A stretch of 64,000 nt of DNA, from the NCBI GenBank assembly GCA_040757775.1, contig JBFLWQ010000003.1:124001-188000 (forward strand), written 5' to 3'. The notes under the pieces are model-generated. The model worked only from the letters and a program-made list of their open reading frames with translations, was not told the DNA's origin and ran no database searches. Each line of letters starts with the position of its first letter. Position 1 is the first letter of the stretch. This DNA comes from Thermodesulfobacteriota bacterium. GTDB lineage: Bacteria; Desulfobacterota; UBA8473. Positions 15,535 through 63,202 of this stretch are shown piece by piece. Position numbers and translations under genes: made by a program.

Positions 15535-15645
15535 ATGGGGGCGGTTTAAAAGTGAAAATTAACTTCTTATAGAAGAGATGTCAAGGTATTTTTGTTTACC
15601 CCATTTTTCGTTTATGCTATATATACCACTTGGGTTATTTCCATT

Positions 15646-15679
15646 AAGATTTCTCGTCGTTGTCGCTCCTCGAAATGAC
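15646..15679. repeat. Half copy of the dispersed hairpin repeat
   Basis: This matches the right arm of the copy at 5249-5327 (AAGATTTCTCGTCG ... TCGAAATGAC). The match continues into the following AAAATTCAAAGCTCT, so the repeated unit extends beyond the hairpin itself. Confidence 0.75.
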
Positions 15680-15729
15680 AAAATTCAAAGCTCTATAGGC
15701 ATGATTGGGGAATTCTGTCGGGGGTTATA

Positions 15730-29225: not shown

Positions 29226-30149
29226 TTGTGGAATAGATTTTTGAAAAAGTATCCCTTTTCGCTTCAACATCCATTTTTTATATGGGGAGTACTTTCCATT
29301 TTCTTTTTCATCCTTCTTTTATCGGGGACTGCTTTCGCAAAACAGAAGGGGGTTCCCTTTAAGGTAAGCTGGTTCCCAAAAAAGTTCACACAGGGTGATG
29401 TATGTGTGGTTAAGGTGCTTGTTCCCAGAGGTACTCGTTCGCTCACAGGAGAGTTTCAGGAAAAAGGACTCTCCTTTTATAAAACAAAGAAGAGTAGGTT
29501 ATTTCGAACTCTAATTGGCATAGATATGGAAACAGATCCTGGGACATATCAACTGGTAATATCGGCAAAAAACCGTTCAGGTAGAGTTGTAAAGGGCAGG
29601 TATCGTATAAGGATAAAAGGGAGGGATTTTGGCGAGCAGAGAATAACCCTGCCGGAAGAGATGGTTGAGTTGGACGATAATACCTTAAAGCAGGTGGAGG
29701 AGGAAGAGAAAAAGGTAAAAGAAATATGGATAAAGGAGAGAAATGATAGGCTCTGGCGAGGGAAGTTCATTAAGCCTTTAGACGGAGAGATTACAAGCCC
29801 CTTTGGGGTAAGACGCATTCTCAACGAATTGTCAAGGAATCGCCATAATGGAGTTGACCTGGAAGCAGAAATGGGAGAAGAGATACGATCCTCAAATGCT
29901 GGAATTGTTGTATTTGCAGGTGAACTGTATTTCAGCGGGGAGTCAGTTATTGTGGATCATGGGAGGGGGCTCTATACTATGTACTTTCATCTGTCCAGAA
30001 TTGATGTAGATGAAGGGCAACGGGTCAAAAAAGGGGAGATTTTAGGTCTTGCAGGTTCCACCGGCAGGTCAACCGGTCCGCACCTCCATTGGGGGGTACG
30101 TTTGCACGGGGCCAGGGTTGATCCTTTTTCTCTGCTGAGATTAAGGTGA
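29226..30149 (+). CDS. M23 family (LytM/NlpD-like) metallopeptidase
   Basis: 307 residues. A hydrophobic segment at about residues 18-38 anchors or exports the protein, followed by an immunoglobulin-like region and the M23 peptidase domain. Zinc ligands are visible in RHNGVDLEA and in GPHLHWGV. It cuts or senses peptidoglycan cross-bridges in the periplasm. TTG start at 29226 with a GAGGAG site. Its 3' end overlaps the convergent ispH-ubiA gene by 9 nt. Confidence 0.85.
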   Translation: MWNRFLKKYPFSLQHPFFIWGVLSIFFFILLLSGTAFAKQKGVPFKVSWFPKKFTQGDVCVVKVLVPRGTRSLTGEFQEKGLSFYKTKKSRLFRTLIGIDMETDPGTYQLVISAKNRSGRVVKGRYRIRIKGRDFGEQRITLPEEMVELDDNTLKQVEEEEKKVKEIWIKERNDRLWRGKFIKPLDGEITSPFGVRRILNELSRNRHNGVDLEAEMGEEIRSSNAGIVVFAGELYFSGESVIVDHGRGLYTMYFHLSRIDVDEGQRVKKGEILGLAGSTGRSTGPHLHWGVRLHGARVDPFSLLRLR

Positions 30150-31904: not shown

Positions 31905-31941
31905 TTTTCTTTCCTTAGCAAATAAATACGCATACACTAAT

Positions 31942-32014
31942 GTCATTTCGAGCGAAACGAGAAATCTTAATGCACACAAAATGTTAGAAGATATCTCCCT
32001 TTGGTCGATATGAC
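31942..32014. repeat. Dispersed hairpin repeat, copy 3
   Basis: Opens GTCATTTCGAGCGAAACGAG and closes GGTCGATATGAC; the arms pair imperfectly. It fills nearly all of the gap between tlyA and ispH, so the two genes are separated by a large stem-loop. Confidence 0.75.
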
Positions 32015-32021
32015 ATTGAAT

Positions 32022-46964: not shown

Positions 46965-46972
46965 ATAAAATC

Positions 46973-47006
46973 AAGGGGTTAGCCGATTGAGGGTAGCCCT
47001 TTTTTT
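46973..47006 (+). terminator. Terminator of tRNA-Leu
   Basis: AAGGGG...GCC and GGG...CCCTT form an imperfect stem (one bulge, one mismatch) followed by seven T residues. Confidence 0.65.
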
Positions 47007-47189
47007 AATAGAATATCGGTTACAGATATAGCAGCTCCGCGAATTAACGGGATTCCTTATAGCTTTCCATTCAGATTTGATTACCTCATTTCATCCTCAT
47101 GGTGTCGCTGAATGTAGGAAATTTGTTCTTGTGTAGCTGGGATGCAGATCAGCGAGTCCATCGGGTGGAACAAAAAGAAGGAGAGAAAT

Positions 47190-47948
47190 ATGGCAGACGA
47201 AATTTATCCATTGAAAATGAATGAAACAGAAAAGGCATTCTGGACACTGGCTCTGAACGAAGCTAATGACCCTCGGCAGTTCTTTATAACAACACGCCTT
47301 TTCGCTGGAATTCTGATCAGGCTTGTAAACGAAGTAGAGAAAACCTTTGGTGATAAAGGCCATGAGATCTGCTACAAAATCATGCACCAAGTTGGGCTGG
47401 AGGTCGGAGAAAGAATTATGCAAAAACTGGGGCTCGAGGGTAAAGCAGACCTTCATACCATCCTAAGAGTAACGAGGTATCATGATCTCCAGATTTTCAA
47501 CATTTGCGCCGAAATAATAGAATCCGAGGATAGACGAGGCACGTACCGGGTAACTTTCTGTCCAATTATGCATCATCCTGACTTTAAAGCACGTGACTGC
47601 CGTATTTGGTCATGGTATTTTAGGGGGATACTAGATGCGCTTGGTGTTGACATCGGGTTTGAATTAAAGGAATTGGTCCCTGCTGGTGGTAACGTTTGCG
47701 AATTCAGCTTTTTCTATAAAGAGGATGTCATTTCGAAAGAGATAGCGGATGAGATAATTGACTTCTTGAATAAAAGGAAGGAAAACGCAAAATTGAAGGA
47801 AATCTTTTTCCATCTTAAGAAGTTGGGATTAGTGTCTGATACAAATGAGGGGTTTGGGCTAACTCGAATTCATGCTTCAGTGCTAAGGGACAGGAACGAT
47901 ATTGTCCTTTACGAAGACGGGTTTGGTTCTCCGAAGGAAGCAGCTTAA
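47190..47948 (+). CDS. Hypothetical protein, possibly ATC hydrolase-like
   Basis: 252 residues with a strong AGGAGAG site before the ATG. The middle part, FCPIMHHPDF with DCRIWSWYFRGIL and, further on, a glycine-rich GGNVCEFSFFYK, is reminiscent of the L-2-amino-thiazoline-4-carboxylic acid hydrolase-like or related ligand-binding families. No signal peptide. The C-terminal 70 residues look like an added helical domain. Assignment is weak, and it could equally be a sensor. It lies upstream of the CHAT lipoprotein, 124 bp apart. Confidence 0.4.
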   Translation: MADEIYPLKMNETEKAFWTLALNEANDPRQFFITTRLFAGILIRLVNEVEKTFGDKGHEICYKIMHQVGLEVGERIMQKLGLEGKADLHTILRVTRYHDLQIFNICAEIIESEDRRGTYRVTFCPIMHHPDFKARDCRIWSWYFRGILDALGVDIGFELKELVPAGGNVCEFSFFYKEDVISKEIADEIIDFLNKRKENAKLKEIFFHLKKLGLVSDTNEGFGLTRIHASVLRDRNDIVLYEDGFGSPKEAA

Positions 47949-48072
47949 GACCGTGAGTTAGTACCAAGGAACATAGTGGGGGAACGTAGTGAGGTAGTGC
48001 ATATTAATTAATTATGGCAGGCAGAGATAGGGTTTTCGAGGGTCTTGATAAAACCAGATGAGGTAAACAGCC

Positions 48073-51000
48073 ATGAATATATCGGCTTCCTTACTTTTTA
48101 AGCGTCTTATTCGTCTTATTCCTGTCGCTCTGATAGTATTACTACTTCCATCATGTGCGACCAAGATGTCCGTTGAAGAAGCGAAGAGAGTAGCCGTTTC
48201 TATAAGTCCTGTTTCAGGCTTTGTGCCTCCCCCGAGGAGGATAGATGACATCACTGCAATTCTGAACCAGCCAGGACAGTTTGACACAAAAGTAACAGAA
48301 CGATTAATAGCCCAGGCCAATGCCACCCCACCCGAAAAAGCAGACGGTAACTTCTATCTCAGGAGGGGTTTTGCTGCCTTACAGCTTGGCTGGGCCAGGC
48401 AAGCACTTGAAGATCTGCGTGAGGCACAACGTCTTTCAGAGGCTGCCGGAATTAGTAACGCTCGAATTCACCGTCATCTCGCCTGGGTGGAGAGAACCAT
48501 CGGAAATTTCAGCCGTGCTGTAGAGTTGCTTGAAGATGCCGCTAAAATTGACGATCACCCTTCTACATATTCAGGATTGGTAGAGACATACATCCAGATG
48601 GGAGATATAGAAAAAGCTGAAAAGACCGCAGGCAATGGAAAGATTTTCTGTGCCACCTCTCCGAAGCGGCGCAATTCCCAGTTCGTTTTATGGTGCGACA
48701 TTGAAACAGCGGCTATGGAAGCTGATCTCCTGGAAGCCCGTGCAAAGTATAGTGAGGCAGAGAAGTCTATTCGCCAGCGACTCAGTCTCATGCAGGCCAC
48801 GGAGAACAAATATCCTGGATTGCTCATCAACATCAGGCTACAGCTTGCAGGAAATTTATTGAGGCAGGAACGTTTCACAGAAGCAGAAATCGAGGCTCGA
48901 AAAGCCCTGAAGGAATCCCTGGGGCTCGGGGGGAAAGACGCTCTGTTAACAACAAAAGTAATCGCCACAATTGCCAGCATCCTGAGGGCTCAGGGCAGGC
49001 TCCCGGAGGCAGAAAAACTGGCTTCACTGGTAGTTCATGCCATGGAATCCTCCGGGATATCCAGCGAATCCAGAAATATGAACAACTCACGAATGCTGCT
49101 TGGCACTGTGCTTTCGGCTCAGGGTAACTTCACCGCTGCGATGAAGCAATACGAAGTCGCCCTCAAAGGGGTAAATGAAGATGAGTATCTTTATAAAAGA
49201 TACTTCATGGGGAGTCCCGATTTTATTCTCTCACTTCTGATGACTGGACAGCACGAAATGGCACTAAAAATAGTAACCAACACCTACACCAGAGCTGTAC
49301 AGAGATTAGGAGAAACGCATTACATAACCGCTGAGAGGCTGGCACTCCGGGGAATGGCTCACTACCGGATGAAACACCTCAGGGAGGCGGAGAGGGATTT
49401 TTCCATGGCGACGAACAGACTGCTTGAGTTTCAGATGGACAAGGCAGACTTTTCGAGGGCACGGAGGCTGAAGATAATCCTGGATGATTATATCAATCTG
49501 CTGGGTGAAATTCACGGCTCACCGGTAGAAAAAGAACTGGGTATCGACGCTGCGGGAACCGCATTCAGGATAGCCGAGGCATCACGGAGTCATACAGTCC
49601 AGCGTGCCCTGGCAGCGAGCAGCGCACGGTCGGCAGAAACAAATCCAGAATTGAATGACCTGATACGCCGTGAGCAGGATGCCCGGAAACAAATAGAGGT
49701 CATGGAGTCAACCGTCCTCGACCTTATAGCCGCACCATCTCAGGAACAAAAGCCGGAAATCATCAAGGATTTGCAAACAAAGATAAACAGCCTGAACAAA
49801 GCTACTGCTGCCCTGCAGGAGGAAATTAAAAAACGCTTTCCGAGATACTCGGATTTCGTGAATCCACGGGTAGCAACATGGGCTGTGACACAGCAGAATC
49901 TGCGCTATGGTGAGGCATTGATCTCCATCTATTCCACTAACATGAAAACGTATGTCTGGGCTATCCCCCACAATGGACACATGTCATTTCTTGTTTCCCC
50001 CTTCGGGAAAAAGGAAATCGGAGAGATTGTTGTCAGCTTGAGGAAATCTCTTGATCCAAGCCCTGTTACCGTGGGTGAGATCCCGGATTTCAACATCGAT
50101 TTGGCTTACGATCTTTACCACAAACTCCTGAAACCGACAGAAAATGGCTGGAAAGATGCCTCTGATATCCTGATTGTCACTAACAGTCCCATGGATCAAA
50201 TTCCGTTATCAGTTCTCCCTACTGCTCCTGCAAAGCTTGAAAGCGACAGGGACCTTCTCTTCAGTAAATACCGCCGTGTGCCGTGGTTCATCCGAAAGGC
50301 TTCTATTACCATTCTGCCATCTGTTTCCTCTCTCATCACACTCAGGACTCTTCCAGCAGGCGATCCCAATCGCAGGGCTTTTGTTGGATTTGGCGATCCC
50401 GTTTTTAACGTGGAACAATTAGCTCAATCGCAGGAGAGAAAAAAGTCCCTTGACACCACTTCTGTGGCAAAAAGGGGAACCGTCACTCAGATTCGCGGTG
50501 TCCGGATCACAGAAAAGGGGGGACTGGACAACTCTGATATCACAACCATCCAGTTGGGTAAACTGAGTCGCCTTCCTGATACAGCAGAGGAGATCAGAAG
50601 CATTGCTCAGACGGTGGGAGCCGATCCTGACAGAGATATTTTTTTCGGAAAGGATGCCTCAGAAAATCGTGTAAAGACCATGAATCTTTCAGACAGAAAG
50701 ATTATATCCTTCGCTACCCATGCCCTGGTGCCGGGGGATCTGGATGGACTGGAGCAACCGGCCCTGGCTCTTTCTTCTCCATTCGTTACGGGTGATAATG
50801 AGGACGGCCTGCTCACTATGGGCGAAATCATGAAGCTGAAATTGAATGCCGATTGGGTCATCCTTTCTGCATGTGACACCGCTGCAGGGGAAGGTAATGG
50901 CTCGGAAGCCCTTTCCGGCCTTGGAAGGGCATTTTTCTACGCTGGTACGAGAGCGATTATCGCCAGCATGTACCCTGTTGAAACGACATCTGCAAGGAAG

Positions 51001-51195
51001 CTGATCACTGCTGCTTTCCGGTATCAGAAAGAGGATAATACAATTTCACGGGCGAGAGCTTTGCAGAAGGCCATGATAAACCTGATAGACAAAGAAAATT
51101 TAGTGGATGATGCCACCGGTAAAATCGTTGCAAGTTACGCTCACCCTCTCTACTGGGCACCTTTTATTATCGTTGGAGATGGAAGTGGAAGATAG
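48073..51195 (+). CDS. TPR-CHAT caspase-like lipoprotein
   Basis: 1040 residues. A lipoprotein signal peptide ends in LLPSC (Cys28), then comes a long array of tetratricopeptide-like helical repeats (about 90-460), a coiled-coil region, and a C-terminal CHAT protease domain (about 620-1040). The predicted dyad is His883 (SFATHAL) and Cys934 (LSACDTAAGEG). CHAT proteases are usually cytoplasmic, cutting partners after TPR-mediated recognition; here the export signal places it on the periplasmic side of a membrane. Substrate unknown. The start has a GATGAGG site 12 nt upstream. Confidence 0.88.
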   Translation: MNISASLLFKRLIRLIPVALIVLLLPSCATKMSVEEAKRVAVSISPVSGFVPPPRRIDDITAILNQPGQFDTKVTERLIAQANATPPEKADGNFYLRRGFAALQLGWARQALEDLREAQRLSEAAGISNARIHRHLAWVERTIGNFSRAVELLEDAAKIDDHPSTYSGLVETYIQMGDIEKAEKTAGNGKIFCATSPKRRNSQFVLWCDIETAAMEADLLEARAKYSEAEKSIRQRLSLMQATENKYPGLLINIRLQLAGNLLRQERFTEAEIEARKALKESLGLGGKDALLTTKVIATIASILRAQGRLPEAEKLASLVVHAMESSGISSESRNMNNSRMLLGTVLSAQGNFTAAMKQYEVALKGVNEDEYLYKRYFMGSPDFILSLLMTGQHEMALKIVTNTYTRAVQRLGETHYITAERLALRGMAHYRMKHLREAERDFSMATNRLLEFQMDKADFSRARRLKIILDDYINLLGEIHGSPVEKELGIDAAGTAFRIAEASRSHTVQRALAASSARSAETNPELNDLIRREQDARKQIEVMESTVLDLIAAPSQEQKPEIIKDLQTKINSLNKATAALQEEIKKRFPRYSDFVNPRVATWAVTQQNLRYGEALISIYSTNMKTYVWAIPHNGHMSFLVSPFGKKEIGEIVVSLRKSLDPSPVTVGEIPDFNIDLAYDLYHKLLKPTENGWKDASDILIVTNSPMDQIPLSVLPTAPAKLESDRDLLFSKYRRVPWFIRKASITILPSVSSLITLRTLPAGDPNRRAFVGFGDPVFNVEQLAQSQERKKSLDTTSVAKRGTVTQIRGVRITEKGGLDNSDITTIQLGKLSRLPDTAEEIRSIAQTVGADPDRDIFFGKDASENRVKTMNLSDRKIISFATHALVPGDLDGLEQPALALSSPFVTGDNEDGLLTMGEIMKLKLNADWVILSACDTAAGEGNGSEALSGLGRAFFYAGTRAIIASMYPVETTSARKLITAAFRYQKEDNTISRARALQKAMINLIDKENLVDDATGKIVASYAHPLYWAPFIIVGDGSGR

Positions 51196-51294
51196 TTGCA
51201 GTAACGAAATGGCGAAAACGCCAACGGGTAGCCAGAAGTATTACAAGCGTCCCAAGAACTGACCCAGGAGAAAAACACCCGGGAGAAAAAACCC

Positions 51295-51323
51295 TTGACA
51301 CCTGTTTTGTGCAATGATAGGTT
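51295..51323 (+). promoter_or_regulatory. Promoter candidate for the acidic protein gene
   Basis: TTGACA (51295-51300), 17-bp spacer, TAGGTT (51318-51323) with an extended TGA upstream of the -10. It lies 57 bp before the gene. Confidence 0.5.
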
Positions 51324-51380
51324 ATTTTGAACTTTTTGCGACTTCATCAAAATCAAGGTTTGTGAAAAATAGAGGGCATA

Positions 51381-52025
51381 ATGGGTAGTACTGAAGAAGA
51401 TGAAGAGATCATCGAATTAGTAGATGTTATAGAGGAAGGGCCAGGGCTAGCTCTATTATATGAAAAGTCTCTCAAAGAACTTGAGGAATCCCGTAAGGAA
51501 ACTGACCTCTCTGCGTCCGCCTCTGGCGGACAGGCAGGCCTCTTTAATAAACCTGAAAACCTGGAAGAATTAAGCTTTAAGGGAGTAATAAAAGAGCACC
51601 TCGAAGAGAAGTTCAGCATTGAAGAAGCAGACTTTACTAAAGAGCCCGAACTCCAGGATGAATGGGAAATAGAATGGGCTTCAGATGAAGAATCTATGCC
51701 CTATAAGGGTCATGTAGAAGGAGTTCCCCCCCCAGAACTTCCATACAGAGAAGTCCAACCCTCAGAAATCCCGGAAGAAACTCCAGATGACCAGGAGATA
51801 AAAAGTATTGGGATGCTGGAGGAGAAAAATGTTGAAGTAATTATCAGGGAAGTTAGTCGAGAGGTGATAGAGAGTGTTGCAATGAAGATTACCCCTGATA
51901 TTACAGAGGCTGTGATTAAGGCTATGAACGAGAAAATAGAGAAAATAGCCGCGGACCTCTTTCCTCCCATAGCAGAGAAAGTGATTAAAGAAGAGATAGA
52001 GAAGCTTAAAGAAGGGGAAGTTTGA
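51381..52025 (+). CDS. Acidic PopZ-like/deltaproteobacterial C-terminal helix protein
   Basis: 214 residues, strongly acidic and proline-rich through residue 140, so probably disordered. The C-terminal 65 residues form two amphipathic helices ending IAEKVIKEEIEKLKEG, which resembles the oligomerisation region of PopZ/DUF2497 proteins and C-terminal tails common in deltaproteobacteria. An in-frame segment LSASASGGQAG is encoded by GTCCGCCTCTGGCGGAC, a palindrome of the dispersed repeat type. Function unknown; scaffold role is inference. A strong terminator follows. Confidence 0.55.
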   Translation: MGSTEEDEEIIELVDVIEEGPGLALLYEKSLKELEESRKETDLSASASGGQAGLFNKPENLEELSFKGVIKEHLEEKFSIEEADFTKEPELQDEWEIEWASDEESMPYKGHVEGVPPPELPYREVQPSEIPEETPDDQEIKSIGMLEEKNVEVIIREVSREVIESVAMKITPDITEAVIKAMNEKIEKIAADLFPPIAEKVIKEEIEKLKEGEV

Positions 52026-52072
52026 CATCCAGATCATGTCGTATAAGTTGTAAAGCTAATGTTGGTATATCA

Positions 52073-52096
52073 GGGGATTATGTTAATCCCCTTTTT
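52073..52096 (+). terminator. Intrinsic terminator
   Basis: GGGGATTA / TAATCCCC stem with a 3-nt loop followed by TTTTT; it ends the acidic-protein transcript before valS. Confidence 0.88.
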
Positions 52097-52103
52097 CACT
52101 TTT

Positions 52104-52229
52104 ATACAGAGCGTCATAACTTCGCATACCTGTGTTGCTCCTCGGCTCGTCATTGCGGCGCACGACAAAAGTGCGCCTCATTCCTCGCTTTCGTCGCGCC
52201 TTGGTCTGCTTTGTTCTGACGCTCTGTAT
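52104..52229. mobile_element. MITE-like element with 13-bp terminal inverted repeats
   Basis: ATACAGAGCGTCA at 52104-52116 and its exact complement at 52217-52229 bound 126 bp that are clearly richer in G+C than the surroundings. No coding capacity. Unrelated in sequence to the element at 8514. Confidence 0.65.
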
Positions 52230-52277
52230 GCGGCGCTATCATATCGGTATGTATAGGTCTGATTGACAAGGAGATTA

Positions 52278-54944
52278 ATGGCTGTGAAAGTATTGGAAAA
52301 AGGTTATGACCCTGCTAAAGTTGAGGACAAATGGTCTAGCTATTGGATTAACAATGGTAACTTCAAGGCTGATGTAAATGGTACAAAGGAGACTTTCTCC
52401 ATTGTTATTCCTCCCCCAAATGTTACTGGTTCTCTCCATATGGGTCATGCTCTGAATAATACCTTACAGGATATCCTGGCTCGGTTTAAAAGGATGGACG
52501 GGTTTAATGTGCTGTGGATGCCGGGAACAGACCATGCAGGAATTGCTACTCAAAATGTTGTGGAGAAGAATCTAGCCCAAAAAGGGATCAGCCGCCATAC
52601 ATTAGGGAGAGATAAGTTTATCGAACATATATGGAAATGGCGCAAAGAGTTTGGGGGAATAATTATAAATCAGCTTAAAAAATTGGGGGCTTCCTGTGAT
52701 TGGAGCAGGGAACGATTTACTATGGATGAAGGACTATCAAAGGCTGTTAGAGAGGTCTTTGTGGAACTTTACCATGAAAAATTGATTTATCGTGGCGATT
52801 ATATCATCAACTGGTGTCCCAGATGTCAGACTGCCCTGTCAGATTTGGAAGTTGAACATGAAGAGACTGAGGGGTATCTGTATTATCTTAAGTATCCCCT
52901 TTGTAATAGCAGGAAATTCATCGTAGTTGCGACCACCCGCCCGGAGACTATGTTGGGTGATACTGCGGTAGCTGTAAATCCAAATGATGAACGACACAAA
53001 AAACTGATTGGAAAGAGGGCTGTTTTGCCTGTAATGGGAAGGGAGATTCCTGTAATAGCAGATGAGTATGTTAACAAAGACTTTGGAACAGGAGCAGTAA
53101 AGGTTACTCCAGCCCATGATGTAAATGACTTTGAGATGGGGTTAAGGCATAATCTGGAAGCGATTAAGGTTATGGATGTAGATGGCAGGATGAATGAGAA
53201 TGCCGGTCCATACAAAGGTCTTGATAGGTTTAAGTGCAGGAAGGAAATAATCGAAGAATTTCAAAAAAACGGGGTGTTAAAAAAGAGAGAAAAGTATTCT
53301 CATAATATAGGGCACTGTTACAGGTGTAAGATGGTCATAGAACCTACCTTATCCAAGCAGTGGTTTGTAAAAGTAAAACCTCTGGCAGAGCCGGCTATCA
53401 AAGCTGTTAAAGATGGTAGTATCAGGATTATACCTGCATCCTGGGAGAAAACCTACTTTGAATGGATGAACAATATCAAAGACTGGTGTATTTCTCGCCA
53501 GATATGGTGGGGTCATAGAATACCAGCATGGTACTGCAACGATTGCGGGGGGGTTATTGTATCGAAAGAAAACCCCACCCGGTGTTCTAAATGTCTGAGT
53601 TCTGACATCAGCCAGGAAACGGATGTCCTGGACACATGGTTCAGCTCAGCCCTGTGGCCTTTTTCTACCATGGGCTGGCCTGAACATACAAAGGAGCTTG
53701 AACTGTTTTACCCAACATCTGTTTTGGTGACGGGTTTCGACATTCTATTCTTTTGGGTTGCCAGAATGATAATGATGGGGATAAAATTTATGGGTGAAGT
53801 CCCTTTTAATGATGTATATATCCATGCCCTGGTTCGAGACATCGAGGGCAAGAAGATGAGCAAGTCTAAAGGAAACGTTATTGACCCGTTGGTAATCATA
53901 GAAAAATATGGAGCGGATGCTTTCCGTTTTACTCTAGCGGCATTTGCTGCACAGGGAAGGGATGTTAAGCTTTCAGAAGAGAGGATCGGTGGTTATCGCA
54001 ACTTTGCAAATAAAATATGGAATGCCTCAAGGTTCTCCCTGATGAACATGGAAGAATATGATGAATGCCTTCTAGATAAGAATGGGATTGAATATACCCT
54101 GAGCGACAGATGGATACTATCCCGATTGAACAGGACTATTGAACAGGTAAGAGATGCTTTAGAAAACTACAAGTTCAATGAGGGTGCCCATTTCTTGTAC
54201 CAATTTATATGGCATGAATTCTGCGATTGGTATATTGAACTCATCAAATATTACCTGTACCAGAAGGATGACACGAAGCTTAAACTAAACACTCAATATG
54301 TTCTATTAGGGGTACTTAAAAAGGTATTGTGCCTGCTCCATCCTTTTATGCCTTTTATAACAGAAGAGATCTGGAGCAAATTACCGGATAGTAAAGGGAG
54401 CATTAATGTATACCAATATCCAAAATCAGATTCTAACCTTATAGATGAGAAGGCAGAAGCTGAGATGAATCTCATTATAGACATTGTGGGAAATATAAGG
54501 AATATCAGAGGAGAGATGAACATACCGCCTGTCACACAGGTTGAGGCATTTCTTTATACTGAAGATCAGGAGACATGCAAGAAACTTGAAAGGAATAAAA
54601 ACCACATTGAAAATCTGGCAAGGATAGGTACCCTTTCTATCTCTTCCAGGAAAAAAGAATATAAATCTTCTGCTACATCTGTAGTAGATAAGGTGGAAAT
54701 ATTCCTCCCCCTTAAGGGGATAATTGACTTTTATGAGGAGGAGAAAAGATTGAGAAAAGAGAGTGATAAGATTGAGAAAAAACTCATGCTCTTGAATAAA
54801 AAGCTGTCCAATGAGGATTTTCTTAGCAAGGCACCTTCTCATGTAATAGAGAACGAACGGATTGAAAATATAAAGTTGATTGAAAAAAAGAGAAAATTTG
54901 AGGAAGGAATACAGAGGATGCAAGAGTTGCAAAGAGAGATATGA
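52278..54944 (+). CDS. valS: Valyl-tRNA synthetase
   Basis: 888 residues, full length. HIGH motif is HMGHALN, the editing domain contains TTRPETMLGDTAVAVNP, KMSKS is KKMSKSKGN, and a C-terminal coiled coil follows. It charges tRNA-Val. The ATG at 52278 has an AAGGAGA site; a TTG five codons upstream is rejected. Its stop lies 4 nt before the nadC start. Confidence 0.97.
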   Translation: MAVKVLEKGYDPAKVEDKWSSYWINNGNFKADVNGTKETFSIVIPPPNVTGSLHMGHALNNTLQDILARFKRMDGFNVLWMPGTDHAGIATQNVVEKNLAQKGISRHTLGRDKFIEHIWKWRKEFGGIIINQLKKLGASCDWSRERFTMDEGLSKAVREVFVELYHEKLIYRGDYIINWCPRCQTALSDLEVEHEETEGYLYYLKYPLCNSRKFIVVATTRPETMLGDTAVAVNPNDERHKKLIGKRAVLPVMGREIPVIADEYVNKDFGTGAVKVTPAHDVNDFEMGLRHNLEAIKVMDVDGRMNENAGPYKGLDRFKCRKEIIEEFQKNGVLKKREKYSHNIGHCYRCKMVIEPTLSKQWFVKVKPLAEPAIKAVKDGSIRIIPASWEKTYFEWMNNIKDWCISRQIWWGHRIPAWYCNDCGGVIVSKENPTRCSKCLSSDISQETDVLDTWFSSALWPFSTMGWPEHTKELELFYPTSVLVTGFDILFFWVARMIMMGIKFMGEVPFNDVYIHALVRDIEGKKMSKSKGNVIDPLVIIEKYGADAFRFTLAAFAAQGRDVKLSEERIGGYRNFANKIWNASRFSLMNMEEYDECLLDKNGIEYTLSDRWILSRLNRTIEQVRDALENYKFNEGAHFLYQFIWHEFCDWYIELIKYYLYQKDDTKLKLNTQYVLLGVLKKVLCLLHPFMPFITEEIWSKLPDSKGSINVYQYPKSDSNLIDEKAEAEMNLIIDIVGNIRNIRGEMNIPPVTQVEAFLYTEDQETCKKLERNKNHIENLARIGTLSISSRKKEYKSSATSVVDKVEIFLPLKGIIDFYEEEKRLRKESDKIEKKLMLLNKKLSNEDFLSKAPSHVIENERIENIKLIEKKRKFEEGIQRMQELQREI

Positions 54945-54948
54945 TGCC

Positions 54949-55806
54949 ATGTTTGAGATTAACAGTTTAATAAAAGTAGCCCTTGATGAAGATATTGGGA
55001 GTGGAGACTTTACTACCTCTTCAATAATTGCCCCTGGTATAAAAGGGAATGCTCAGATAATTGCAAAAGAAGATTTGATTCTTGCTGGCATAGACATCTT
55101 CTGTAGTGTCTTCACATTCTTAGATTCCAGGGCAAAATCCAATAATTTTTTTAAAGATGGAGATTTTGTAAAGAATAACAGCACTATCGCTGAGATTTCA
55201 TGTGACGTGGTTGATCTTCTTCGTGGGGAAAGGGTTGCCTTGAATTTTTTACAGCGTTTGTCAGGCATTGCCACTTTAACCCGCAGATATGTAGATAGGG
55301 TTAAGGGATGCAATGTTAAGGTTTTAGACACGCGAAAGACTACCCCTGGCTGGAGGGCTCTTGAAAAATATGCTGTAAGGGTAGGGGGAGGGGTCAATCA
55401 CCGTGGCGGTCTATTTGACGGGATTTTAATAAAAGACAACCATATAAAGGTCTGTGGCGGAATCCGTCAGGCGGTTGAAAAAGCAAGGGCTAATATTCCC
55501 CATACCTTTAAGATTGAAGTAGAGGTCAAAAACCTTGATGAAGTGAAAGAAGCCCTTGAGTCTGGTGTTGAAATCATAATGCTGGACAATATGGATTCTG
55601 TGGAGATGGAAAAAGCGGTTAAAGTCATTAATAAGAGGGCTGTGGTGGAAGCATCGGGAGGAATAAATCTCGATAATATAAGAGATGTTGCAGAAACAGG
55701 GGTTGATCTCATATCGGTTGGGGCTCTCACCCACTCAGCCAGGGCTTGCGATATCAGTATGAACATTGTAGAAGTCAACTACCATCGGCTAAAGCCGATG
55801 GCTTGA
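54949..55806 (+). CDS. nadC: Nicotinate-nucleotide pyrophosphorylase (carboxylating)
   Basis: 285 residues. Conserved KVLDTRKTTPGWR, RVGGGVNHRGGLFDGILIKDNH (quoted in part) and ASGGINLDNI are present. It makes nicotinate mononucleotide from quinolinate in de novo NAD synthesis. Starts just after the valS stop; a longer frame inside valS is rejected. Confidence 0.96.
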   Translation: MFEINSLIKVALDEDIGSGDFTTSSIIAPGIKGNAQIIAKEDLILAGIDIFCSVFTFLDSRAKSNNFFKDGDFVKNNSTIAEISCDVVDLLRGERVALNFLQRLSGIATLTRRYVDRVKGCNVKVLDTRKTTPGWRALEKYAVRVGGGVNHRGGLFDGILIKDNHIKVCGGIRQAVEKARANIPHTFKIEVEVKNLDEVKEALESGVEIIMLDNMDSVEMEKAVKVINKRAVVEASGGINLDNIRDVAETGVDLISVGALTHSARACDISMNIVEVNYHRLKPMA

Positions 55807-55930
55807 GGGTTCAAGTCCGCCAGAGGCGGAAAGGGGTCAAGTGATCAAGGGAGAATTTTTTCTTTACTACTCTCTAATCCTGGAATCCTCGACTCCTCGA
55901 ACCCTTGCGGCGCAAAAGATCGAACTGAAG

Positions 55931-55955
55931 TCTTCGCCTAAAGGCGAGGGTTTTT
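55931..55955 (+). terminator. Terminator after nadC
   Basis: TCGCC-TAAA-GGCGA stem extended by wobble pairs, followed by TTTTT, 125 bp after nadC. The gap also contains the GTCCGCCAGAGGCGGA palindromic word at about 55816-55831. Confidence 0.65.
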
Positions 55956-56016
55956 CTCCCATTCCCCGAAGGGGACAATAAAGGGGTAATGGTTTAAGAA
56001 CAGGAGACTAGAAGAT

Positions 56017-56781
56017 ATGTTGCTGGTTATTGATGTTGGGAATACTCACACTGTTATGGGGGTTTTTGATGGAGACAGACTGGTTCAGGACTGGAGAATC
56101 AGGACACAAGAAGACCATACTGTAGACGAGTATGGGATTCTGATCACAAACCTTTATTTTTCCAGCAGGATAGCCTTAAGGGATATTAAGGATATAGTTA
56201 TCTCGTGTGTTGTACCCCCACTTAATATAACCCTGGAAGAGTTATGTAAGAAATACTTCAACATCAGCCCCCTGATTATAGAACCGGGAATTAAAACAGG
56301 GATGCCTATATACTATGATAATCCCAAAGAGGTTGGGGCTGACAGGATAGTTAATGCAGTGGCTGCATACGAGAAATATAAGCAGAGCCTGATTGTTGTT
56401 GACTTTGGAACTGCTACTACCTTCGATTATATATCGGCAAACGGTGAATACCATGGCGGGGTCATCGCCCCAGGGATTATAATTTCCAGTGAAGCTTTGT
56501 TCAAAAGGGCTTCTAAGCTGCCACATGTGGAATTAATCAAGCCCAAGTCAGTTATCGGTAAGGATACTATAAGCAGTATGCAAGCGGGGATTGTTTTAGG
56601 CTATGCCAGTTTAGTGGATGGAATCGTAAAAAGGATAAAAAAAGAAGTTAAATCAAATCCCAAGGTGATTGCAACGGGAGGATTGGCTTCCCTTATCGCA
56701 TCAGTATCGGAAACGATAAGTGAGATTGATAAATATCTTACCTTGAAGGGACTGAGGATACTTCACGAAAGGAACAGGTAG
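56017..56781 (+). CDS. coaX: Type III pantothenate kinase
   Basis: 254 residues. ATP-binding [25 protein letters not shown] and [10 protein letters not shown] mark the CoaX family. It phosphorylates pantothenate for coenzyme A. A GGAGA site precedes the ATG. It is followed by yggU. Confidence 0.96.
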
Positions 56782-56833
56782 GATATGTTTCTTTTTAAAA
56801 GGTATTCCTGAGAGCGAGAAGGGGGTCAGTAAT

Positions 56834-57133
56834 ATGTTATATATTAATGAAACTGCCAATGGGATAGTCTTTAAGGTTTGGGTGCAGCCCAAATCTGCCA
56901 GAAATGAAATCAAAGACCTAAAGGGAGATGCCTTAAGGGTAAGGATAACTGCTGTTCCGGTTGAAGGCAAAGCAAATAATGCCTGCATGGATTTTCTGGC
57001 AAGGGAATTGGGTATTAGTAAATCGCAGGTAGAGATTATCGGAGGCCATAAATCGCGAACAAAGGTGATAAGAGTAACAGGCGTTACGAAAGGTGAAATA
57101 GAACGACTTGCAATTCACGATTTACAAGCTTAG
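56834..57133 (+). CDS. DUF167/YggU family protein
   Basis: 99 residues. The family signature KVWVQPKSARNEI, VRITAVPVEGKANNA and IIGGHKSRTKVI is clear. Function is unknown; the fold is small and RNA-binding has been suggested. Its end overlaps the convergent suhB-like gene by 4 nt. Confidence 0.9.
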   Translation: MLYINETANGIVFKVWVQPKSARNEIKDLKGDALRVRITAVPVEGKANNACMDFLARELGISKSQVEIIGGHKSRTKVIRVTGVTKGEIERLAIHDLQA

Positions 57134-57909
57134 TCCAATCCTTTCTTTATTACCTGAACCATTTCATTGTGTATCCTCCCATTGCTGGCAAGGATTTCTT
57201 TAGAATAAATATCAAAGACTCCCCCTTTAAAATCCGATACCATCCCTCCTGCTTCTCTAACGATTAAGCTGCCCGCAGCCACATCCCAGGGGGATAGTTT
57301 GAGTTCCCAAAAACCATCAAACCTACCCATAGCCACATAGCACAGATCCAATGCAGCGGAACCTGCTCTTCTAATTGCCTGAGCATTCATTATAAAGTTG
57401 TTGAAATGAATAAGGTTGTTGTTTTTACTTTCTCTTAAATCATAGGGGAAGCCAGTTGCCAGCATACTGTGAATTAACTTATCAGTTGAAGAAACGCGGA
57501 TTTCCCTCCCATTTAAACATGCCCCATTTCCCTTTTCTGCCGTAAACAACTCATCTAAAACAGGATCGTATATAACACCAAGCAGAATATCTCTATTCTT
57601 CTCGAATGCTATTGAAACACAAAAACATGGGTATCCATGGGCATAGTTAGTAGTTCCATCCAGAGGGTCTATGATCCATTTATGAGAGGAGGTGCCTTTC
57701 TGACTTTCACACTCTTCTGTCAATATCTGGTGATCCGGATAGGTATTTCTGATAATTTGAACGATTGTTTTTTCTGAATTTATGTCAATATCTGTCACCA
57801 GATTTATCTCACCTTTGAAACCGATTTCTACAGACTTTCCTAAGTTCTCCTTCAGAATTTCCCCGGCCTCCTTGGCAGCCTCTATAGCAACTTCCATAAT
57901 TTCTCTCAT
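57130..57909 (-). CDS. suhB: Inositol monophosphatase family protein (SuhB-like)
   Basis: 259 residues with the metal-binding motif IDPLDGTTNYAHG and the second site WDVAAGSLIVREAGG. It dephosphorylates inositol or related phosphates and in Enterobacteria also associates with NusA-type antitermination; the role here is untested. Start at 57909, or at ATG 57897. Confidence 0.93.
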   Translation of the reverse strand: MREIMEVAIEAAKEAGEILKENLGKSVEIGFKGEINLVTDIDINSEKTIVQIIRNTYPDHQILTEECESQKGTSSHKWIIDPLDGTTNYAHGYPCFCVSIAFEKNRDILLGVIYDPVLDELFTAEKGNGACLNGREIRVSSTDKLIHSMLATGFPYDLRESKNNNLIHFNNFIMNAQAIRRAGSAALDLCYVAMGRFDGFWELKLSPWDVAAGSLIVREAGGMVSDFKGGVFDIYSKEILASNGRIHNEMVQVIKKGLD

Positions 57910-57951
57910 TTATCCCTCCATGATTGATGGCTTCGTAAAAAGTTCTGTTTT

Positions 57952-58031
57952 GTAATTCCAAGGAGCGCAAGCGACGAGGAATCTTTAATGATATCAGATT
58001 CCTCGTCCACCAGAGGCGGACTCGGAATGAC
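57952..58031. repeat. Dispersed hairpin repeat, variant copy
   Basis: Begins GTAATTCCAAGGAGCGCAAG and ends GACTCGGAATGAC; the arms CGACGAGGAATCT and AGATTCCTCG pair. The right arm shares CCACCAGAGGCGGA with the copy at 15447. Confidence 0.75.
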
Positions 58032-58193
58032 ATGGGGGCCTGTTTTCGACATTTTACGAGCATATCATGATTTAGAATACCAAAAATCCTGCTCATGTTC
58101 GCTCCAATAGAAATTTTTCATTTTTCAGGGTGGACGAATTAAGAATATCAAAAAAGTCATAATTTAGCAACAACTGGCTTGGGTTTTTGTACA

Positions 58194-58223
58194 TTGACTT
58201 TTCTATAATTTTTATGCTATAAA
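58194..58223 (+). promoter_or_regulatory. Promoter of the SDR gene
   Basis: TTGACT (58194-58199), 18-bp spacer, TATAAA (58218-58223), 43 bp before the start codon. Confidence 0.65.
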
Positions 58224-58266
58224 GTCTGTCAGAAATGGTCAGTAAACCCAAAATAAAGGAGAATTA

Positions 58267-59004
58267 ATGAAGCTAAAAGATAAGGTTGCTGTAATTACCG
58301 GTTCCAGCCGTGGAATGGGAAGGTTAGTAGCTCTGGATATGGCAAAAGAAGGGGCTAAGGTAGTAATAAATGGCACAACCCCTGGGCCAGTGGATGAAGT
58401 CGTTAAAGAGATTACATCACAGGGAGGACAGGCAGTCGCAAACTACGATACTGTTGCTACAATGGAGGGGGGGCAGAAAATAATCAAGACAGCCATTGAT
58501 AACTTTGGGAAAATAGATATTCTTGTAAACAATGCTGCTATCACAAGAGACAGATCCCTGGTCAAGATGACCGAAGAGGATTGGGATTCTGTAATAGCGA
58601 TTGATTTGAAAGGGGTCTTTTCATGCACCAAAGCAGCCATGACGTATATGATAGAGCAAAGATATGGGAAAATAATAAATGTTGCCTCTGCAGCGGGAAA
58701 GGCAGGAAATGTAGGACAGGCAAATTACAGTGCAGCCAAAGCTGGTGTAATTGCTTTCACCAAGACATGTGCGAAGGAACTGGGAAAATACAATATTACC
58801 GTCAATGCAATAGCTCCATCCCATAAAACAAGGATGTACGATAATGTCCCTGAAGAGGTATTCAAGAAAATAATAGCTGCCAGAGCACTGGGAAGGATGT
58901 CAGAACCATATGAGATACCACCAACCTTTATATTTCTTGCATCCGATGATGCCAGTTTCATTACCGGACAAGTCATTGGTGTAGATGGCGGACTTTTCTT
59001 ATAG
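58267..59004 (+). CDS. Short-chain dehydrogenase/reductase (FabG-like)
   Basis: 245 residues. NAD(P)-binding TGSSRGMGR, NNAAI, catalytic Ser in VASAAGKAG and Tyr-Lys in NYSAAKAG. Close in form to 3-oxoacyl-ACP reductase, but no fatty-acid genes are adjacent, so the substrate is open. AAAGGAGAATTA precedes the ATG. Confidence 0.88.
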   Translation: MKLKDKVAVITGSSRGMGRLVALDMAKEGAKVVINGTTPGPVDEVVKEITSQGGQAVANYDTVATMEGGQKIIKTAIDNFGKIDILVNNAAITRDRSLVKMTEEDWDSVIAIDLKGVFSCTKAAMTYMIEQRYGKIINVASAAGKAGNVGQANYSAAKAGVIAFTKTCAKELGKYNITVNAIAPSHKTRMYDNVPEEVFKKIIAARALGRMSEPYEIPPTFIFLASDDASFITGQVIGVDGGLFL

Positions 59005-59064
59005 AAGGGCAAGTCCTGAACGGGTTAAAAAGAAAGAGGTTGTTGTATTTGGAGGAGGTGTTCC

Positions 59065-61143
59065 ATGAAGAAATTATCCGTGTATGTTTTAATCCTTTTT
59101 ATCCTGCTCATCGCAATTCCCGGCTTTGCCTGGATTGGTGAGTTACATGATGCCGCAGAGCATGGCGATATTGAAAAAGCCCGTAGCCTGCTCAACAAAG
59201 GTGCGAATGTGAATGCGAGAGACAGCAAAGGCAATACCCCGCTCCATGTGGCTGCCAAGTATGGGAAAAAGGATATAGCACTTCTTCTGATTGAAAAAGG
59301 TGCTAATGTGAACGCAAAGGATAATGATGAATATGGTATAACCCCTCTTGATGACGCTGTGAATAATGGATACAAAGAGGTTGCCCAACTTCTTATTGAA
59401 AAGGGAGCTAATGTGAATGCAAAAAAGAGAAATACATGGACAGCTCTCCATGATGCTGCGTTTGGCGGGAAGAAAGACATTGTTTTCCTTCTTATAGAAA
59501 AGGGCGCAAATGTGAATGAGAAAACTGGTGTAGGCGACACACCTCTTCATATGGCAGCGTATAATGGTCACAAAGATGCCGCTCTGCTCCTCATTGAAAA
59601 GGGGGCATATCAAACAGAGAATAAGGATGGTTTTACCCAACTCCATGTCGCTGCAAGGCAAGGCAAAACTGACGTAGTCAGGCTTCTTATCGAAAAGGGT
59701 TGGCGTTTTGTGGCAAGGGACAATGCGGGCCGTACCCCTCTCCATTGGGCAGCGAGTGGGGGGCACAAAGAGGTCGCTCAACTCCTCATTGAAAAGGGAG
59801 CCGATGTGAACGCAAAAATGAACAATAACTGGACTCCTCTCCATGATGCAGCGTTTAATGGCTCCAAAGAAATTGTTCAACTGCTAATTGAAAAGGGAGC
59901 AGATGTAAACAGTAAAGATAATGAAGGCTTTACCCCTCTGCATAGAGCAACGAACTATATGCCTATCTTTTATAAAGGAGATGCAGAAGCTACTGTTCTC
60001 CTCCTCCTAAAAAATGGCGCGGATGTAAATGCAAAGACTAACGATGGTGATACCCCTCTCCATTTTGCTGTGCTAAGGAATGATAAAGTGAAAGCTACCC
60101 TCATTGAGAAGGGTGCAGATGTGAACGCAATGAACTTTAAAGGGCAGAACACTCCTCTCCATATTGTTTCTGGTATTGGCAATAAAGAGTTTGTCCTTTT
60201 CCTCATTGAAAGGGGCACTGACCCAGGCATAGCAAATAAAGATGGTAAAACACCTTTAAAGTTAGCTCAGGAAAAAGGCCACACAACCGTTGCCCTTATC
60301 CTTGAAGAGGCAGAGAAGGAATTTGTCAAAAAACTCCTCGCTAAAAAAACCGAACCTGAAAAAGCAGGTCAATATATTACTAAGCATGCTATACCTGATT
60401 TTAAATCTGCACCAAGACTGGATGACCTTGCAGTTATCATCGGCATTGAAAACTATCAGGGGCTGCCAAAATCCGACTATTCAAAGAGCGATGCGGGGGT
60501 TGTCAAAGAGTATTTCAAGGCACTTGGATTTCAGGAGAGGAATATTGAATTAATTACTGATGAAAAGGCAACAGGGAAAAGTATTGAAAAGGTAATAGAG
60601 GCATGGCTTCCCAATCGTGTTAAAAAAGACAGCAGGGTAATTGTTTATTATTCTGGTCACGGCGCACCAGAGCCAAAAACAGGAGATGCTTATATCGTTC
60701 CCTATGACGGAGACCCGAATTATCTTGAAGTTACAGGCTATCCATTAAAGAGGCTGTATGAAAAACTTGGTAAACTTGAGGCAGCGGAGGTCATCGTCCT
60801 TCTCGATTCATGCTTTTCAGGCGCAGGTGGGAGGAGTGTCCTTGCAAAAGGGGCAAGGCCGCTCGTGATGACGACAGAGGGTTTTGTTTTGCCGCAGAAT
60901 ATTGCAGTTTTATCTGCAACACAGGGAACACAGATTTCTTCATCATCTCCAGAAAAAGGGCATGGGATTTTCACATACTATTTCCTCAAGGCATTAAAAG
61001 ACGGCAAAAAGAGCCTCGCAGAGATTTATGAATACATAAAGCCACTTGTAGAAGACGAGGCAAAGCAGATCAATGTCCAGCAAAGCCCAAGTATAAGCCC
61101 TGATGCTGAGAAATTAAAGGGAAGGTTTGAATTGAGGAAGTGA
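59065..61143 (+). CDS. Secreted ankyrin-repeat caspase-like protease
   Basis: 692 residues. A signal peptide (1-23, ending GFA) suggests export. Twelve ankyrin repeats (about 30-430, consensus TPLHxAAxxGHKEVAxLLIEKGADVNA) are followed by a caspase-fold (peptidase C14) domain at about 450-692 with predicted His532 (YYSGHGAP) and Cys583 (LLDSCFSGAGG). GGAGGAGGTG gives strong initiation. The repeats probably bind a protein ligand and control the protease. A fusion of ankyrin array and caspase with a signal peptide is unusual. The domain is 81% identical to the one at 61829 by hand count. Confidence 0.9.
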   Translation: MKKLSVYVLILFILLIAIPGFAWIGELHDAAEHGDIEKARSLLNKGANVNARDSKGNTPLHVAAKYGKKDIALLLIEKGANVNAKDNDEYGITPLDDAVNNGYKEVAQLLIEKGANVNAKKRNTWTALHDAAFGGKKDIVFLLIEKGANVNEKTGVGDTPLHMAAYNGHKDAALLLIEKGAYQTENKDGFTQLHVAARQGKTDVVRLLIEKGWRFVARDNAGRTPLHWAASGGHKEVAQLLIEKGADVNAKMNNNWTPLHDAAFNGSKEIVQLLIEKGADVNSKDNEGFTPLHRATNYMPIFYKGDAEATVLLLLKNGADVNAKTNDGDTPLHFAVLRNDKVKATLIEKGADVNAMNFKGQNTPLHIVSGIGNKEFVLFLIERGTDPGIANKDGKTPLKLAQEKGHTTVALILEEAEKEFVKKLLAKKTEPEKAGQYITKHAIPDFKSAPRLDDLAVIIGIENYQGLPKSDYSKSDAGVVKEYFKALGFQERNIELITDEKATGKSIEKVIEAWLPNRVKKDSRVIVYYSGHGAPEPKTGDAYIVPYDGDPNYLEVTGYPLKRLYEKLGKLEAAEVIVLLDSCFSGAGGRSVLAKGARPLVMTTEGFVLPQNIAVLSATQGTQISSSSPEKGHGIFTYYFLKALKDGKKSLAEIYEYIKPLVEDEAKQINVQQSPSISPDAEKLKGRFELRK

Positions 61144-61153
61144 AGGAATAAAT

Positions 61154-61648
61154 ATGCTTGATTATCTTGGTATATTAAAAAAAATGAACGAAAAAGGAAT
61201 TCGATACATTGTTGTCGGAGGAATTGCGGTCAACCTGTACGGTATTCCAAGGATGACTTATGATATAGACCTGATACTTGACCTTGAGGACAAGAACTTA
61301 GAAAAATTTTTGAAATTGCTAAAAAGCTGGGGATTCAAACCAAAAGTGCCTGTTGACATCATGGAATTTGCAGAGAAGAATAAGAGAGAAGAATGGATAA
61401 AAAAGAAGAATATGAAGGCATTCAATCTCGTAAACCCCGAATGGGCTATTTCAGAGATAGACATTGTGATTGATTCACCTGTAGATTATGAGAAGGCGCA
61501 TAAAAGAATCAATGAGATTAAGCTTCATGGTTTTACAATCCCTGTAGTCTCGATTGACGATCTCATAAAAATGAAGGAAAGGACAGGGAGACAGCAGGAT
61601 AAGGCTGACATAAGATATCTAAAGGAAATGAAAAATGAAAAGAAGTAA
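61154..61648 (+). CDS. Nucleotidyltransferase-fold protein (toxin-antitoxin-like)
   Basis: 164 residues. YIVVGGIAVNLYGIPRMTYDIDLIL shows the nucleotidyltransferase GG-x(n)-DxD pattern (quoted in part), with later Asp in SEIDIVIDSP and SIDDLIKMKERTGR. Similar to the nucleotidyltransferase parts of AbiEii- or MNT/HEPN-type systems. It starts 10 nt after the ankyrin-caspase stop and overlaps the 59-residue gene by 14 nt, so all may form one operon. Confidence 0.75.
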   Translation: MLDYLGILKKMNEKGIRYIVVGGIAVNLYGIPRMTYDIDLILDLEDKNLEKFLKLLKSWGFKPKVPVDIMEFAEKNKREEWIKKKNMKAFNLVNPEWAISEIDIVIDSPVDYEKAHKRINEIKLHGFTIPVVSIDDLIKMKERTGRQQDKADIRYLKEMKNEKK

Positions 61649-61814
61649 GGCCAGAGGCTTTGATTATTATCTGAGCAAAGAGGCAATTGAGAGATATAAG
61701 GAGAAGCCGCTTGAATTGAGGCTGAAGTGGCTTTATATGGGGAATCTTTTGCGGATGGGATACAGTAAAAAACTTATCAAACTACAAGATAAATTTAGAG
61801 AAGGGGAGAGGTAA
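61635..61814 (+). CDS. 59-residue partner protein of the nucleotidyltransferase
   Basis: Helical, basic protein (GFDYYLSKEAIERYKEKPLE, then RLKWLYMGNLLRMGYSKK). Its start overlaps the nucleotidyltransferase gene by 14 nt, the layout of a toxin-antitoxin-like pair. I do not recognise a named family; small proteins of this type, ending in FREGE-like motifs, are often seen next to nucleotidyltransferase genes in my memory. Confidence 0.6.
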   Translation: MKRSKARGFDYYLSKEAIERYKEKPLELRLKWLYMGNLLRMGYSKKLIKLQDKFREGER

Positions 61815-61828
61815 TAGGAGGTGAGATA

Positions 61829-63202
61829 ATGAAAACCTTTATCTATATATGTCTGATTATTCTTGTTTCCGGGTGCGTCATACCTGTGCCCAGTCAATCA
61901 ATTCAGCCAAAACGTCTTGACCCTTTGGCAGGCATTGATGTCGGACCTTCGCCTTACAGCGAGCTTACCGTTGGCGTCATAATGTCAGAAAACACAAAAA
62001 GCAGTACACGTTTTGGACAAGAAGGCAGACGCTGGGTTAATTTTGACCTTGAAAAAATCATTGAGAGATTTGACGACGCTTTCAGGCATAATTTCAAGAC
62101 CGTCGTAAAGCTTGAAAAGATGGATGACGCCAATGCCGTGCATGTAGACCTAATCGCTGTCTTTGACCGTTATACCGAGGTTTCGCGTAATATCAAGTTT
62201 GACGCCAGTGTAATATTTTTCACGCCTGATCGTAGCGAGATTGATACCGTCAAGGTAGAAGGTATATCTCATAGTTTTAGTGGACTCCCGGCAAAGTCCA
62301 TTGAAACAGCAGCATTTGACACTGCGCGCAGATTGGAAGCAGCGATTCGCTCTTCGGCAAAACTTAGAGAATTTGCAAAGTCGGCATCGCCTCATAAGGC
62401 TGCCGTCTATGCTTCAAAAAAAGGGCCTGTAATTATAGACATTCACCATATCCCTGATTTTCAATCAAGCCCGAGACCAGATGATTTGGCGGTTATTATC
62501 GGAATTGAGAATTATAAAAGCCTTCCAATGTCCGATCACTCAAAAAGCGATGCGGCTGTTATAAAGGATTATCTAAAGGCTTTTGGATTTCAGGAAAGAA
62601 ACATTGAATTCGCGGTTGATGCCGATGCGACAAAATCAGCCATTGAAAAGGCAATTGAGGCATGGTTGCCAAATCGCGTTAAAAAAGACAGCAAGGTTTT
62701 CGTTTATTATTCAGGCCACGGTGCGCCAGAGCCTAACACAAGCGATGCCTACATAGTGCCGCATGATGGAGACCCCAATTATCTTGAGGTTACAGGGTAT
62801 CCTTTGAAAAGGCTTTACGATAGATTGGGCAAATTGCAGGTGGCGGAGGTCATTGTCCTTCTTGATTCATGCTTCTCAGGAGCAGGCGGAAGGAGTGTAT
62901 TGGCGCAGGGCGCAAGGCCGTTGGTTATGATAACAGATATTAAAACAATTCCATCAAACATGGCTATACTTTCAGCAACGCAAGGCAGCCAGATAAGCAC
63001 ATCATCTCCTGAAAAAGGACATGGCATATTCACATACTACTTCCTCAAGGCGATAAAAGACGGAAAGAAGAACATAGCAGAGATTTACGAATACATAAAG
63101 CCACTGGTAGAAGACGAGGCAAAGCAGATCAATGTTCAGCAAAGCCCGGGTATAAGCCCGGATATTGAAAAATTAAAGGGAAGGTTCATTTTGAGAAAAT
63201 AG
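61829..63202 (+). CDS. Lipoprotein with caspase-like protease domain
   Basis: 457 residues. The lipobox LVSGC (Cys16) predicts a membrane-anchored lipoprotein. Residues 30-205 form an alpha/beta domain (LTVGVIMSE, VHVDLIAVFDRY) resembling small lipoprotein sensor domains, not ankyrin. The caspase-fold domain (about 210-457) has His297 (YYSGHGAP) and Cys348 (LLDSCFSGAGG), spaced 51 residues apart as in the ankyrin protein. GGAGGTGAGAT gives strong initiation. Confidence 0.88.
   Translation: MKTFIYICLIILVSGCVIPVPSQSIQPKRLDPLAGIDVGPSPYSELTVGVIMSENTKSSTRFGQEGRRWVNFDLEKIIERFDDAFRHNFKTVVKLEKMDDANAVHVDLIAVFDRYTEVSRNIKFDASVIFFTPDRSEIDTVKVEGISHSFSGLPAKSIETAAFDTARRLEAAIRSSAKLREFAKSASPHKAAVYASKKGPVIIDIHHIPDFQSSPRPDDLAVIIGIENYKSLPMSDHSKSDAAVIKDYLKAFGFQERNIEFAVDADATKSAIEKAIEAWLPNRVKKDSKVFVYYSGHGAPEPNTSDAYIVPHDGDPNYLEVTGYPLKRLYDRLGKLQVAEVIVLLDSCFSGAGGRSVLAQGARPLVMITDIKTIPSNMAILSATQGSQISTSSPEKGHGIFTYYFLKAIKDGKKNIAEIYEYIKPLVEDEAKQINVQQSPGISPDIEKLKGRFILRK

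Follow-up and report, generated by a model that had tools for sequence, protein, structure and literature searches.

The gene under study is predicted to encode an exported TPR-CHAT lipoprotein anchored at Cys28. Its product carries a signal sequence, a lipobox cysteine shared with its orthologue, an invariant His-Cys dyad and a predicted fold in which a helical scaffold precedes the CHAT domain, and the gene has an accessory location within the window, as we call the whole stretch of 64,000 nucleotides that was analysed (Table 1). Exported TPR-CHAT proteins form a widespread branch to which the protein belongs, and it is also one of the caspase-family proteins encoded across this genome, all of them apparently exported. 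We consider it probable that it is an outer-membrane-anchored, periplasmic, separase-like protease that is conditionally activated. To our knowledge, the bacterial TPR-CHAT proteases characterised so far are RNA-guided and act in the cytoplasm. Should a large fraction of TPR-CHAT proteins prove to be exported and lipid-anchored, regulated proteolysis of the separase kind would also take place in the bacterial envelope.

Start site and export signal

The initial annotation read the frame as a lipobox followed by TPR and CHAT domains. Its open reading frame and the residues C28, H883 and C934 are correct by sequence, and both domain assignments by Pfam: CHAT (PF12770) scores 148.8 bits against a curated cut-off of 24, and Pfam TPRs span residues 94-445. 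The same Pfam scan of the product returned no match to Peptidase_C14 (PF00656) or Peptidase_C50. At the N-terminus, the positively charged residues K10, R11 and R14 are followed by a hydrophobic stretch (residues 15-25) and by the lipobox Cys28. The lipobox, LLPSC, has Pro at -2 and so falls outside the common [LVI][ASTVI][GAS]C consensus. Pro at -2 nevertheless recurs in relatives, since LLPAC is present in L053 (G049) and FLPSC in a WD40-C14 protein of G095, the likely counterpart of which in this genome has FLTSC.

The closest full-length orthologue (L065, from a Syntrophaceae MAG, up to 53% identity) has its own signal sequence, and reads VSSC/ATKMSLEEAK where the window protein reads LPSC/ATKMSVEEAK. 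The Cys28 column contains Cys in 18 of 34 alignment rows, the remaining rows mostly being type-I signal peptides. Among 79 homologous loci, 42 type-I signal peptides and 13 lipoproteins were called by a home-made rule rather than a trained predictor such as SignalP or LipoP, a crude rule that also flagged one nucleotidyltransferase of the window; many of the other loci are truncated or frame-broken, and nearly all intact full-length homologues have export signals. The placement of the protein outside the cytoplasm, as initially proposed, is backed by the start site, the lipobox common to the orthologue and the export signals of homologues. Ala at +2 further suggests sorting to the outer membrane, by a rule established in E. 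coli that may not be the host's.

It is highly improbable that the protein is cytoplasmic and its start misannotated. The lipobox Pro at -2 and a second Met at residue 32 would fit such a reading, but a Shine-Dalgarno sequence precedes the upstream start only and residue 32 lacks one, the orthologue keeps a signal sequence and SC/ATKMS, and signal peptides are present in homologues. A downstream start, the possibility raised against the initial annotation, is contradicted by an in-frame TAA at 48064 (9 nt upstream of the ATG), by GAGGT and by the lipobox match in L065.

Table 1. Features discussed in the text (positions in the window, unless a locus is named)
Feature	Position	Strand	Details
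TPR-CHAT gene (predicted lipoprotein)	48073..51195	+	1040 aa; full-length AlphaFold2 model with the 34-sequence alignment, mean pLDDT 83.2, pTM 0.82
Shine-Dalgarno GAGGT	48060..48064	+	8 nt ahead of ATG48073; read in sequence
Signal sequence, residues 1-27	48073..48153	+	sequence; model helix 8-28
Lipobox Cys28 (LLPS/C), Ala at +2	48154..48156	+	sequence; orthologue L065 VSS/CATKMS
TPR solenoid, residues ~57-520	48241..49632	+	Pfam TPR matches, model helices, PDB matches to TPR proteins
Long helical hairpin linker, residues ~525-596	49645..49860	+	AlphaFold model
CHAT domain, residues 678-1036	50104..51180	+	Pfam E=2.9e-43; VIA-align Z ~21 to Csx29 and separase
Catalytic His883 (predicted)	50719..50721	+	follows strand 875-881
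Catalytic Cys934 (predicted)	50872..50874	+	follows strand 928-931
Ankyrin and C14 caspase gene	59065..61143	+	type-I signal peptide; H and C intact
C14 caspase lipoprotein gene	61829..63202	+	lipobox VSGC; H and C intact
Accessory segment (ATC-hydrolase-like and CHAT genes)	46971..51283		4.3 kb; missing from congener G004; directly 3' of tRNA-Leu
tRNA-Leu(taa), left border of accessory segment	46877..46964	+	
ATC_hydrolase-like gene, co-inserted	47190..47948	+	below Pfam cut-off
DUF4384 gene adjoining exported C14/CHAT	L043:6907-7773	-	
DUF4384 gene adjoining exported C14/CHAT	L047:9590-10444	+	
DUF4384 gene adjoining exported C14/CHAT	L053:3254-3967	+	

Predicted fold and described relatives

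The full-length model consists of a signal helix, a disordered tether (24-54), a solenoid to ~520, a long hairpin to 596 and the CHAT domain, in which H883 and C934 sit directly after two core strands. Its top Foldseek matches are separase and Csx29, in both of which a helical scaffold is combined with the protease domain. A model of the CHAT domain alone (pLDDT 84.7) matches Csx29 with Z 21.1 over 279 residues at 3.4 Å (VIA-align), separase with Z 21.1 at 3.3 Å, DdvA with Z ~18 and gingipains with Z ~17. By sequence, the single CHAT domain found no match among known structures; the corresponding profile search matched DdvA and Csx29 only, both weakly. His883 and Cys934 are present in 33/33 covering rows of the 34-sequence alignment, with homologues at 18-54% identity, from which we infer that the protein is a cysteine protease with a His883/Cys934 dyad. 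In its modelled fold, it looks like a protein of the separase/Csx29 type, yet sequence models place it outside both families.

Csx29, the protease of Craspase (type III-E CRISPR), shares the TPR scaffold, the C-terminal CHAT domain and the His-Cys dyad, with the catalytic Cys aligned, and is tied for best structural match to the CHAT domain. However, Csx29 is cytoplasmic and works with Cas7-11, whereas the window protein has a signal sequence and lipobox and is only ~13% identical. The NCBIfam Csx29 model did not match the window protein at E<=0.01 and gave a paralogue 15 bits against a cut-off of 300, and neither Cas7-11 nor other cas genes were found among the window ORFs scanned. Separase (clan CD, C50) likewise combines a helical superhelix with a protease domain of this fold, but is eukaryotic and nuclear, and the Pfam scan above gave no match to its Peptidase_C50 family. 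DdvA (PDB 8rot, 8rw5), a transmembrane anti-sigma factor, is also a membrane-associated bacterial CHAT protein, and in the alignment its ATH and AAC motifs fall on His883 and Cys934. In contrast to DdvA, the window protein lacks an anti-sigma domain and an internal TM helix and has a predicted lipid anchor instead; before its TPR region, Pfam and the model indicate a signal sequence only. Gingipains (C25) are extracytoplasmic clan CD cysteine proteases of similar fold, but they are not lipoproteins, lack TPRs and belong to a different family. Bacterial C14 metacaspases and orthocaspases share the clan CD fold, the His-Cys dyad and the use of repeat domains (TPR, WD40) as sensors, but the window protein is CHAT, not C14.

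We searched the open-access literature and found no description of exported TPR-CHAT proteins as a class. The nearest described proteins are the cytoplasmic Csx29 and the membrane anti-sigma factor DdvA.

The locus, the genome and its relatives

The CHAT gene and an ATC_hydrolase-like gene make up the accessory segment. The latter ORF was listed from 47142, and the ATG at 47190, after AAGGAGAG, is the likelier start. Congener G004, in which the locus lies on one long contig, keeps the tRNA-Leu on one side and the hypothetical gene and valS on the other, with a different 1.5-kb cargo between them, and in two further congeners the right flank is retained next to other genes. The window's CHAT gene was found in no congener, some of these genomes being incomplete, and its GC content is 0.488 versus 0.418 for the window. 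Site-specific integration at the tRNA-Leu was considered and rejected: no duplicated tRNA end or att repeat was found, and the tRNA-Leu near the L072 homologue differs in sequence from that of the window, so we regard the site only as a variable locus. Filing the gene as a defence system by PADLOC was also set aside, the one match (BovA) being weak.

The window contains three exported caspase-superfamily proteins (CHAT with LLPSC, ankyrin-C14 with a type-I signal, C14 with VSGC) within 15.1 kb (48073 to 63202), in agreement with the initial annotation. By position these genes are not one operon or one system, because the CHAT gene and the C14 pair lie ~8 kb apart, and what separates them is mostly housekeeping genes (valS, QPRTase, pantothenate kinase, IMPase, SDR). 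At two separate loci of this genome, a pair of exported C14 genes flanks a nucleotidyltransferase gene of the DUF6036/AbiEii type (window 61154-61648, plus strand; L043:11436-11930, minus strand).

The envelope protease theme initially proposed from these three genes is borne out genome-wide and is broader than the window. A search of the 3.1 Mb genome for further CHAT and C14 lipoproteins, also proposed at that stage, gives a total of 4 CHAT and 13 C14 proteins. Under one start-choice and export-signal rule applied alike to both sets, all 17 look exported, versus 19/84 background ORFs (Fisher P ~1e-9). A lipobox was called in 10/17 versus 4/84, where one of the ten (C13:72681) is equally readable as a type-I signal, leaving ~9-10 lipoproteins, and one of the four (L050) is a caspase missed by the filter. 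The His-Cys dyad is intact in 17/17 (16 by pattern, C13:62601 by eye). In a 2012 survey (PMC3501461), just 15% of metacaspases had TM helices, and some of these helices were likely signal peptides, compared with 13/13 exported C14 proteins in this genome. A genome with an entirely exported caspase superfamily would be a clean setting in which to ask what roles bacterial caspases had before they took part in immunity and cell death. One region of this genome (G000:C13:53997-73367; L043, L044) contains six C14 genes in ~20 kb, several with WD40 and all with export signals.

In 99 relatives, C14 proteins are also mostly exported. The CHAT proteins there form two classes, one exported, with TPRs and high Pfam scores, the other cytoplasmic and combined with other partners. 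In named genomes of Proteobacteria, Bacteroidota, Acidobacteriota, Aminicenantes and Cyanobacteria, most homologues are likewise exported. TPR-CHAT proteins with export signals are widespread across phyla and not private to this organism. CHAT proteins of 2650-2880 aa occur in G033:C75, G046:C1, G067:C28 and G069:C16, three of the four with export signals. An 83%-identical CHAT homologue (L072:428-3793) adjoins the genes for two exported proteins, one with a transglutaminase core and one of C14-Lcl_C make-up. In L113, L128, L135 and L137, a repeat-rich frame of ~1050 aa lies a few bases upstream of an exported alphaproteobacterial CHAT gene; downstream of these CHAT genes is a kinase-DUF4384 gene (L128) or another gene.

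Among the 99 relatives, 24 of 36 DUF4384 genes (seven of the 36 from one G093 locus, a few fused to the caspase) have a C14 or CHAT gene within 3 kb, versus ~0.4 expected. Both DUF4384 genes of this genome adjoin caspase genes and are exported, and we regard DUF4384 as a candidate conserved partner of exported caspases. It was rejected as a partner of the window CHAT gene, which it does not adjoin although it adjoins other caspases. CHASE2 was rejected as well: it flanks L065 and L068, two of the closest homologues, and adjoins no caspase of this genome.

Proposed function and alternatives

In the mechanism that we consider probable, Sec would export the protein as a lipoprotein, and the lipidated Cys28, with Ala at +2 and no inner-membrane Asp signal, would hold it at the outer membrane, in the simplest case on the periplasmic side. 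A flexible tether of ~30 residues would link the lipid anchor to the TPR superhelix, which may bind a partner or substrate, and the C-terminal CHAT cysteine protease would act through the His883/Cys934 dyad. As in separase and Csx29, the helical scaffold could hold or recruit a regulator, and a changed regulator contact, or release of the regulator, would license cleavage of a specific envelope protein. No substrate or regulator gene is encoded adjoining the CHAT gene. The role is most likely envelope surveillance or conflict, which we favour over housekeeping because the distribution of the gene is patchy and accessory.

Three other functions were weighed against this conditionally activated protease. 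An exported sensor or scaffold lacking protease activity, in which CHAT binds and signals the state of the envelope to a partner, would be in keeping with the same-fold CHAT domain of the transmembrane DdvA, possibly used for binding, and with the CHASE2 sensor proteins beside L065 and L068. We think this unlikely: neither the His nor the Cys varies across the 33 diverse homologues or across the genome's 17 caspase-family proteins, which points to selection for catalysis. A housekeeping-like protease that matures secreted or outer-membrane proteins or controls their quality, comparable to gingipains that process surface proteins, appears similarly doubtful. The gingipain-like fold and the position of the alphaproteobacterial homologues a few bases 3' of long repeat-rich ORFs are consistent with it, but the two such ORFs scanned (L128, L135) gave no informative Pfam match, the window gene lacks a neighbour of this kind, and congeners do without the gene.

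Somewhat less doubtful, though still only a tentative possibility, is an effector of envelope defence or competition that senses phage or contact-dependent attack, cleaves an envelope target and kills or protects the cell. The patchy accessory gene, its variable tRNA-Leu locus, its higher GC and its absence from congeners all fit this possibility; cytoplasmic defence commonly employs CHAT and caspase effectors, and DdvA controls a defence island. Against it, the PADLOC match is partial (BovA, E=7.8e-4), the surroundings contain no defence island, and no toxin or gasdermin-like partner was seen adjoining the gene. A defence or competition role could also be added on top of the outer-membrane protease model.

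At the scale of the genome, the 17 exported, dyad-intact CHAT and C14 predicted proteases might form an extracytoplasmic caspase network with TPR, ankyrin and WD40 sensors, many members being lipid-anchored and some lying beside DUF4384 partners. Such a network would be the envelope counterpart of cytoplasmic caspase defence and death systems, with the TPR-CHAT lipoprotein as a separase-like initiator; we offer this as a speculative and rather improbable extension.

Elsewhere in the window, an apparent fusion combines LytB/IspH and UbiA prenyltransferase domains in one 612-aa ORF (30144-31979, minus strand). An interspersed repeat of ~114 bp is found at 5229-5342, 15643-15694 and 31941-32018, and shares 85% identity with L097:1461-1574, on a contig of another Deltaproteobacteria MAG.
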